DNA of 37,909 nucleotides from a virus. Below are positions 848 to 1,846 of the stretch, piece after piece (position 1 is the stretch's first letter; the number at the start of each line of letters is the position of its first letter). The notes beneath the pieces were generated by a model that saw only the letters and a program-made list of their open reading frames with translations, searched no databases and was not told the DNA's origin. The stretch lies in IMG/VR virus record IMGVR_UViG_3300008117_000121, positions 1 to 37,909 of that record; one strand, 5' to 3'. The translations under genes were made by a program, and so were the position numbers.

Positions 848-882
848 ACAAAATAAAAAGCACAGCTATAATTAGCCGTGCT
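848..882 (-). terminator. Hairpin terminator upstream of the 590-826 gene
   Basis: A 10-bp stem (859-868 with 873-882, one G-U) with a 4-nt loop is followed on the minus strand by a run of five U residues, then AUUUU. It would end transcripts arriving from the hammerhead/mini-ORF side before the zinc-ribbon gene. A short A/U tract on the other side means it could work weakly in both directions. Confidence 0.65.
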
Positions 883-942
883 TTAAAATCTCTTTCACAG
901 TAATGTAGAACTGTCAGGTTAACCTCTATACCTGCATTTGTG

Positions 943-1002
943 TTTCTGTTTCGACCCTCAATTAGGTCATCATCAGCATAGACAATAGTCTATGGACAGA
1001 AA
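943..1002 (-). ncRNA. Candidate type III hammerhead ribozyme
   Basis: All three helices and the conserved core can be placed on the minus strand. Stem III pairs UUUCUG (1002-997) with CAGAAA (948-943), plus U996 with A949. The predicted cleavage triplet is GUC (997-995), cutting after C995. Stem I is CAUAGAC (994-988), loop UAUU, GUCUAUG (983-977), seven perfect pairs. The core is CUGAUGA (976-970). Stem II pairs GACC (968-965) with GGUC (956-953), then comes GAAA (952-949). Stem III is open, which defines type III. One departure from consensus is U969, an extra or unpaired base between the core and stem II, which might slow cleavage. The element abuts a hairpin at 1002-1030 and precedes the leader of the 590-826 gene. 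Activity is inferred, not shown. Confidence 0.75.
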
Positions 1003-1030
1003 AGGCTTGACAACATAATCATCAAGCCTT
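1002..1030 (-). terminator. Hairpin abutting the hammerhead element
   Basis: A perfect 9-bp stem (AAGGCTTGA on minus 1030-1022 with TCAAGCCTT 1010-1002) has an 11-nt loop and is followed by UUCUGUC. The U-tract is short, so termination may be partial. The base following the stem is the start of hammerhead stem III, so read-through transcripts would carry the ribozyme directly after this hairpin. Confidence 0.5.
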
Positions 1031-1052: not shown

Positions 1053-1118
1053 CTATTTAAAGTCCCACTCTTGTGCATCCTTAACATTAAGAATAACACA
1101 ACCATTAATAATACTCAT
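1053..1118 (-). CDS. Possible 21-aa peptide gene
   Basis: An ATG at 1116-1118 on the minus strand opens a 21-codon frame ending in TAG: MSIINGCVILNVKDAQEWDF plus a final lysine. Amino-acid use looks protein-like and the leader is A/T-rich like other starts here. A hairpin follows 22 bases after the stop, matching the gene-then-hairpin pattern of its two minus-strand neighbours. The length is too short for statistical confidence. It could be a micro-protein, a leader peptide or chance. Confidence 0.35.
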   Translation of the reverse strand: MSIINGCVILNVKDAQEWDFK

Positions 1119-1439
1119 ATTGTGTGTGTATTTAAAACATTAACAAATAGTATAAGCATTAAGAGGATATTCACTCACCTAATTAACCCACATCCATAGT
1201 GTTGGACTGATTAATGCTATATATATGTCAAACTGAATCAATATTTACATTCTATATTTATATATTATATGTATAAGTTGTATGTACACCACCTCTCATT
1301 CTCTCTCAATTCATATATAAAGGTGAGTTTTGTTTAACGTAAAGTTTGAAAAACCCGTGTTTTCTTGCATCAACGTTAAACAAAATGGGTTATTATGCCC
1401 ACCCATGTGCTTATTCACTCCCACCCTTTATATATGGAA
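1119..1439. other. AT-rich spacer with inverted repeats, no gene seen
   Basis: About 320 bases without a convincing gene. AGCATTAA (1155-1162) and TTAATGCT (1211-1218) form an 8-bp inverted repeat around a 48-nt interior that includes TCCA/TGGA. Next is a strongly AT-rich tract (1212-1290) with many TATA steps, then a 13-bp inverted repeat (1328-1385). ATGGGT/ACCCAT pairs at 1385-1390 and 1401-1406. It probably holds the 5' leader and promoter of the minus-strand mini-ORF/ribozyme transcript; no exact Bacteroidota -7 element was found on that strand. Confidence 0.4.
1328..1385. repeat. 13-bp perfect inverted repeat
   Basis: TTTTGTTTAACGT (1328-1340) is the exact reverse complement of 1373-1385, separated by 32 nt. 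The spacer itself has GAAAA/TTTTC complementarity. There is no U-tract, so it is not a standard terminator. It may be a protein-binding site, an RNA leader structure or part of an origin. It lies between the terminator of the 1469-1846 gene and an AT-rich tract. Confidence 0.5.
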
Positions 1440-1468: not shown

Positions 1469-1846
1469 TTACGCAATCAGATCCTCAAGAGCCACTGCTT
1501 TTGGAGCATACTCTTTTGGAGTGATGCTTTTAACAGCAGTGACAATCAGACCACCACCAGGTAAGCTAATGAACGGAATTCCACTCTCACCTTCAAGAAT
1601 CTCGAAGTTAAGAACGTGTCCTAATTCAATGCTACCATTACGCAGACCGTCTGAAACTTGTTGAGAACAAGTGACAGCAGCAGACTGACCATTCTTCTTC
1701 TGAAGAATGACAACCACACGTTTGTCTGTGTCCTTAAAGTTTTTAGGAATGAGAGCAAGACTACCGTCCTTACCAACAAGTTCAAGCACTGTGCCTTGTG
1801 ATTCTAATGTAGACTCTGTTCTTTCGTAGTTTTGAAACTGTACCAT
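1469..1846 (-). CDS. Unknown 125-aa protein, likely beta-rich
   Basis: I do not recognise this family. It is a 125-residue soluble protein with alternating hydrophobic/polar stretches typical of beta strands (VVVILQKK, VLNFEILE) and a glycine-rich turn (SLPGGG) near residue 97. It has no signal peptide, membrane segment or cysteine cluster; only one Cys is visible, near residue 60. The ATG at 1844-1846 is preceded by an A-rich leader. It is a single-gene unit reading away from the late operon, with a strong terminator directly after it. Its position beside the divergent control region would suit an early or regulatory gene, but that is inference. The plus-strand frame at 1346-1564 is a shadow. 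Confidence 0.75.
   Translation of the reverse strand: MVQFQNYERTESTLESQGTVLELVGKDGSLALIPKNFKDTDKRVVVILQKKNGQSAAVTCSQQVSDGLRNGSIELGHVLNFEILEGESGIPFISLPGGGLIVTAVKSITPKEYAPKAVALEDLIA

Follow-up and report, generated by a model that had tools for sequence, protein, structure and literature searches.

The minus strand of a crAss-like phage record was found to carry a whole type III hammerhead ribozyme with one additional U in its core. The window, which is the entire stretch of DNA that was analyzed, is a 37,909-base virus record that encodes a crAss-like terminase, portal, and major head protein (PHROG matches); by these three proteins, the record is a crAss-like phage of the order Crassvirales, a relative of crAssphage. 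The element has the tested structural features of a type III hammerhead, and the subtype with the inserted U, which often abuts a terminator and was found across Crassvirales, is a new form of a known hammerhead kind. In the openly licensed literature, no paper was found that names hammerhead ribozymes and Crassvirales together. The ribozyme is probably a cis-acting, self-cleaving element that cuts leftward read-through RNA between an upstream terminator and the next gene; structure, covariation, and context were observed, and from them we infer that the RNA cleaves, that this affects the messages, and that termination occurs. The parts of the ribozyme are listed below.

942 to 1002, minus strand: whole type III hammerhead ribozyme, 61 nt, recognized by anatomy, fold, covariation, and shuffles; predicted cleavage between 995 and 994
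996 to 1002, minus strand: 5' strand of stem III, UUUCUGU, pairing with 949 to 943 and also serving as U-rich tail for the terminator-like hairpin upstream
995 to 997, minus strand: GUC cleavage triplet, read from the sequence
977 to 994, minus strand: stem I, CAUAGAC-UAUU-GUCUAUG, 7 bp (994 to 988 with 983 to 977, loop UAUU), with compensatory changes at all seven pairs in relatives
970 to 976, minus strand: catalytic core strand CUGAUGA, read from the sequence
969, minus strand: extra unpaired U between A9 and stem II, common to the crAss-like subtype
953 to 968, minus strand: stem II, GACC...GGUC with loop UAAUUGAG (968 to 965 with 956 to 953), all four pairs covarying in relatives
949 to 952, minus strand: GAAA, the core G12 A13 A14 plus A15.1, read from the sequence
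943 to 949, minus strand: 3' strand of stem III, ACAGAAA, read from the sequence

From 1002 to 942, the minus strand reads UUUCUGUC CAUAGAC UAUU GUCUAUG CUGAUGA U GACC UAAUUGAG GGUC GAAA CAGAAAC, with the predicted cut directly after UUUCUGUC. The core nucleotides C3 U4 G5 A6 N7 G8 A9 correspond to CUGAUGA at 976 to 970, and G12 A13 A14 correspond to GAA at 952 to 950. A949 pairs with U996 as A15.1-U16.1, and the cleavage-site nucleotide H17 is C995. Every element sits, to the base, where the first-pass annotation had placed it. Stem III has 6 to 7 bp. Helices and core strands follow in the order III-I-core-II-core-III with closed stems I and II, both in the minimum-energy fold and in 33 copies with 94% paired cells. 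The linker between A9 and stem II, which in hammerheads has no nucleotide or one unpaired nucleotide as in CChMVd(+), consists of the single unpaired U969, whereas the consensus has none. In a model-free prediction, the minimum-energy fold of the segment was the hammerhead itself (-19.4 kcal/mol, z -3.5), with stem II gaining a U-G pair in a shifted register, and the hammerhead still formed when the upstream terminator-like hairpin was included (-33.9, z -5.7). In a 201-nt context, the minimum-energy fold displaced stem III, so folding order may matter. A strict finder for types I and III gave one match in the window; 300 dinucleotide-shuffled versions of it had no match. A tertiary contact between loop I and loop II is needed for hammerheads at physiological Mg2+. 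The loops are conserved within the subtype, loop II having been fixed in part of the searches.

The covariation of the stems was examined in two sets of copies. In a plain MAFFT alignment of 18 copies of the crAss subtype, 94.7% of the pair cells were standard, compared with 35 to 49% when the partners were slid, and double-sided changes were present in 8 of the 18 pairs. Among 33 distinct copies, collected by searching with a covariance model (R1) and with another pattern in which stem II was left free, such changes were found in 14 of the 18 pairs (stem I, 7/7; stem II, 4/4; stem III, 3/7). Because the alignment of the 33 copies was fitted to the model, the 18-copy count is the cleaner one. 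Stem II varied among GACC/GGUC, GGUG/CACC, GAUG/CAUC, GAUC/GAUC, GCUU/AAGC, GGGG/CCCC, and others. The first-pass annotation had named covariation at homologous positions and conserved copies in related genomes as checks; both were found, the former including every pair of stems I and II. Its identification of a type III hammerhead thus stands on exact anatomy, strong covariation in relatives, and conservation as a sharply bounded island.

Since close homologs of two neighboring proteins gave only two viral-contig loci each, relatives were reached through the ribozyme core pattern and through the terminase. The core pattern CTGATGATGACC..GGTCGAAAC, which includes the extra U and leaves stems I and III free, was present in 78 viral contigs. 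Among 68 distinct testable matches, 59 complete a hammerhead (33 of type III and 26 of type I), compared with an expected 1% when the flanks were shuffled. Replacing the extra U by A, C, or G in the pattern gave 11 contigs, and omitting the extra base gave at least 120. The 78 contigs with U against 11 with the other bases indicate that, at least for the GACC/GGUC stem II, phage hammerheads often have an unpaired U after A9 and strongly favor it over any other inserted base. Insertions into the supposedly rigid hammerhead core are therefore widespread in nature, most of them by far being U rather than A, C, or G. The first-pass annotation had seen U969 correctly but had called it a departure; it is better read as a recurrent feature of a subtype than as a defect. 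Two matches in bacterial or archaeal genomes (L331 and L332) lacked the stems and were rejected as chance. No convincing ribozyme was found in L001 and L002, despite a 70% identical 125-aa gene. At L217 (2948 to 3009, minus strand), a hammerhead of the crAss-like subtype has an additional core A (CUGAAUGA) and is possibly decayed.

An Rfam covariance match, which the first-pass annotation had proposed as a check and whose absence it had listed among the refuting outcomes, was lacking: no Rfam hammerhead was found at the gathering cut-off or at E 10, either in the whole window or in the short interval. The cause is technical. As a positive control, a phage hammerhead without the insert (L118) matched RF00008 with 38 bits and an E value of 5e-7, below the gathering cut-off of 48.5 bits, which the window copy did not reach either. 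Loci with three to seven predicted hammerheads likewise gave no Rfam hammerhead match at gathering. The curated cut-off thus misses ordinary phage hammerheads, and the failure speaks about the model and not about the RNA. The window copy shares the type III stem order with RF00008 (Hammerhead_3) but, unlike the insert-less phage hammerhead, does not match it even with the threshold relaxed to E 10; the inserted U plausibly costs it additional bits. Curated RNA models, when applied with standard cut-offs, therefore overlook phage hammerheads.

The ribozyme has the following features around it on the minus strand.

1469 to 1846, minus strand: gene of a 125-aa protein, the first same-strand gene upstream, with no family match above the cut-off
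1053 to 1118, minus strand: putative 21-aa mini-ORF upstream of the ribozyme
1002 to 1030, minus strand: terminator-like hairpin AAGGCTTGA...TCAAGCCTT abutting the ribozyme, with the tail UUCUGUC (predicted fold)
857 to 884, minus strand: second terminator-like hairpin, 12 bp with a U-rich tail, between the ribozyme and the next gene; absent from L004 and L080
828 to 859, minus strand: leader that immediately precedes the 78-aa gene, with 91% conservation in L003 and L267
590 to 826, minus strand: gene of a 78-aa Cys-rich small protein, with homologs directly after the ribozyme in L004/L216 and L080
565 to 585, minus strand: terminator-like hairpin after the 78-aa gene

The mini-ORF and the small gene, between which the ribozyme had been described, both exist as open reading frames. 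The small gene had been called a zinc-ribbon gene; a CxxC...CxxC pattern is visible by eye in the 78-aa protein, but no zinc-ribbon match to Pfam was found for it. The location had also been described as a late/early boundary, which holds for the gene blocks; in close relatives, the ribozyme is on the opposite strand, about 3.0 to 3.8 kb from the start of the terminase gene. After the 125-aa gene, window positions 1312 to 1436 hold nested perfect inverted repeats (CATATATAAAGG/CCTTTATATATG and TTTTGTTTAACGT/ACGTTAAACAAAA), and about 80 nt of this repeat region are conserved in L038/L236, L225, L239, and L290.

Next, we examined the positions of the other copies relative to genes and signals. 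In the larger hammerhead set, an ORF of 40 aa or more had its ATG within 45 nt of the ribozyme in 45 of 59 copies with the U insert (76%) and in 89 of 97 without an insert (92%), compared with 21% of random same-strand positions. The usual distance from the ribozyme to the start codon in the crAss-like subtype was about 15 to 35 nt. The downstream genes of this subtype were mostly unrelated to each other, thereby indicating that the conserved feature is a ribozyme placed before a start codon. Upstream, a hairpin of at least 6 bp directly abutted the ribozyme in 13 of 33 copies, compared with 48 of 1,105 control windows, and in many of these copies the U-rich stretch after the hairpin doubles as the 5' strand of stem III. 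Of 17 hairpin-less copies, 11 had a TATAAT-like hexamer within 16 nt, compared with 18% of control windows, although several of these copies are orthologous and the count overstates their independence. TATAAT is a -10-like sequence and may mark a promoter, although Bacteroidota promoters differ from those of sigma-70.

These arrangements suggest how the ribozyme would act. In leftward transcripts that are not ended by the terminator-like hairpin of the upstream unit, the RNA would cut itself after C995, seven nucleotides beyond this hairpin. The upstream RNA would gain a defined 3' end consisting of the hairpin, the short U-rich tail UUCUGUC, and a 2',3'-cyclic phosphate, and the downstream RNA would carry a 5'-OH and the stem I hairpin at its front and lead into the next small gene. 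Across the family, the ribozyme would separate messages and set the 5' end of the mRNA of the next gene; it would be idle if no read-through transcripts exist. In the window, the distance from the ribozyme to the ATG is 115 nt, unlike the 18 to 23 nt in L004 and L080. Here, the cut would mostly leave an RNA of about 140 nt with a 5'-OH (994 to about 853), and the 78-aa mRNA would arise only on further read-through. Because a terminator and an independently conserved leader intervene, the mRNA-processing role is weaker in the window than in its relatives. The outcome proposed by the first-pass annotation, that messages are separated or a small RNA is freed, is plausible in either form.

The second terminator-like hairpin, directly downstream, means that the window copy may release this RNA of about 140 nt. 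As the main function, with the ribozyme giving a noncoding RNA from 994 to the terminator at 884 to 857 its clean 5' end and the gene using its own promoter, this is rather unlikely. The predicted product has a stable fold (-43 kcal/mol, z -4.9), and two hammerheads flank a conserved noncoding segment in other family members. In addition, L003 and L267, in which R1 found no ribozyme, conserve the 32 nt that immediately precede the ATG, suggesting that the 78-aa gene may have its own promoter. However, the 60-nt segment between the ribozyme and the terminator has no homolog in any compared locus, and the ribozymes of L004 and L080 are too close to the gene for such an RNA.

The preferred reading, cleavage of read-through RNA between units, was then considered against the distribution of the ribozyme. 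Among 50 related records, 20 had an R1 match at E <= 0.1, of which 18 were strong (E below 1e-17) and 2 (G023 and G038) were marginal. Genomes usually had one copy or two copies about 450 nt apart. Of about 49 close relatives for which enough of the region was sequenced, 8 carried the ribozyme, and this patchy presence indicates that it is dispensable. Some carriers had terminases that were only 24 to 33% identical to each other, whereas their ribozymes were 90 to 98% identical. The window ribozyme was 100% identical to that of L080 over 63 nt and to that of L004 over 61 nt, with largely unrelated flanks; in L080, whose terminase is only 30% identical to that of the window, the similarity ends sharply at the ribozyme edge. 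A homologous Cys-rich small gene also lies 3' of the ribozyme in L004 and L080 (53 to 63% protein identity), and the terminases of L004 and L080 are 31% identical. The simplest reading of these sequence comparisons is that the ribozyme, sometimes with its gene, was transferred between distant crAss-like phages. Near-identical copies in very distantly related phages suggest a mobile module common to these phages that would divide their messages.

Such transfer could also mean that an active ribozyme is kept and spread mainly within a recombining cassette among crAss-like phages, with little regulatory use. Near-identical ribozymes and one noncoding cassette of about 450 nt (L041/L022, 91%) across terminases of 24 to 33% identity are consistent with this, as is the patchy presence among close relatives. 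We consider it unlikely: the spacing to start codons is tight, terminator-like hairpins often precede the ribozyme, genomes usually have one copy in one place, and no mobility gene was noticed beside the copies in an unsystematic look.

The window terminase was 83 to 96% identical to those of the best 80 environmental viral contigs, and the identity fell to about 25 to 40% for annotated phages, among them Cellulophaga phi17:2 and crAss-like phages of the human gut; relatives of this terminase were found in Cellulophaga phi17:2, csAssE-Sib, and many crAss-like records. No DNA similar to the window was found among annotated phage records. The ribozyme copy was absent from three records with related terminases (Leptolyngbya phage Lbo-JY46, Cellulophaga phi17:2, and csAssE-Sib).

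The extra U could slow the cleavage reaction. A stronger form of this effect, in which the U inactivates the core and the fold is kept as a structured leader for mRNA stability or protein binding, is very unlikely. An inserted U is unusual in the described consensus and lowers Rfam scores. However, in the 18-copy alignment the A15.1-U16.1 pair is invariant and H17 is C in all copies except one with U, although the DNA search patterns fixed neither U16.1 nor H17; a mere hairpin would not need these nucleotides. Moreover, the CChMVd(+) viroid hammerhead is active with an extra unpaired A after A9 (PMC3705267, citing De la Pena and Flores 2001). Both RNAs have one unpaired nucleotide directly after the conserved A9, which is A in the viroid and U in the DNA phage; the comparison covers the position of the insert. 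A chance resemblance or another RNA, for which the best Rfam match over the ribozyme was SNORD43, a C/D-box snoRNA (18 to 19 bits against a cut-off of 45, below which it is itself a chance match), is refuted by the covariation and also by the absence of shuffled matches and the conservation across phages.

With cleavage of read-through RNA as the preferred reading, we tentatively propose a wider scheme, which is possible but doubtful as a whole. Crassvirales would exchange a "terminator-ribozyme" horizontally, in which the U tail of the terminator is the 5' strand of stem III and read-through RNA is cleaved a few nucleotides later. Termination and cutting would give nearly the same 3' end, insulating neighboring units. 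In terminator-less copies, a TATAAT start would lie near the cleavage site, such that mRNAs made by cutting and those made by new initiation would have a common 5' end, and a related cassette would excise a structured RNA of about 400 to 450 nt. If true, this coupling is a compact insulation of adjacent transcription units in AT-rich phage genomes. A retrozyme-like or circular RNA would have a unit bounded by two hammerheads and a ligase or reverse transcriptase route; the window record has a single hammerhead copy. RtcB was not found in 21 related records, and in the search for a T4-type RNA ligase, no control gave a match. Polynucleotide-kinase-like domains were rare and not tied to ribozyme carriers.

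Hammerheads in phages and prophages have been reviewed (PMC6155905 and PMC7761336). Tandem hammerheads flank prophage genes, and Perreault et al. (2011, PMC3088659) proposed that they divide long phage transcripts into mRNAs of gene length; they were active in vitro and, in one arrangement, in E. coli (PMC3088659). The crAss-like copies share with phage and prophage hammerheads the core, the type III topology, the place beside phage genes, and the proposed transcript-cutting role. Unlike the tandem copies, they are usually single, have a fixed place in the genome, carry a U after A9, and are often fused to a terminator-like hairpin. The theta ribozymes of gut phages (PMC10879173) are also self-cleaving, lie in phage genomes, and process neighboring RNA, but have an HDV-like fold and a tRNA context, whereas no tRNA was found in the window. 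The crAss-like family is a small testable system for the job of phage hammerheads: genomes usually have a single copy at a constant position ahead of a start codon, often with a terminator-like hairpin on the opposite side, and the ribozymes are near-identical in phages that otherwise have little in common.

Several other ribozyme loci were observed. Paired type III hammerheads 450 to 463 nt apart are present in L008 (4229 to 4760, minus strand), L022 (9306 to 9825), and L041 (12434 to 12955, minus strand). The segment between them is conserved and noncoding (longest ORF, 16 to 45 aa), has no Rfam match, and has a predicted structure that covaries, with 24 double-sided pairs in the three sequences; this cassette would be excised as an RNA of about 450 nt. 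The L041 and L022 cassettes are 91% identical, and the terminases are 26% identical. L029 and L328 retain parts of the cassette and only the second ribozyme. L031 and L167 have about six or seven consecutive hammerheads on one strand, each separated from the next by an ORF of 65 to 219 aa, which may allow nearly gene-by-gene RNA cutting within one operon. L032 has two ribozyme classes in one phage region: a Pistol ribozyme (1279 to 1355; Rfam, 53.8 bits) lies upstream of three same-strand type I hammerheads. In L008 (1745 to 1822, minus strand), ARAGORN predicted a tRNA with the stop-reading anticodon TTA, a hint of recoding. Two Rfam tRNA matches in L041 (6570 to 6676 and 7632 to 7763, minus strand) span 107 and 132 nt, over the normal length, and possibly contain inserts.
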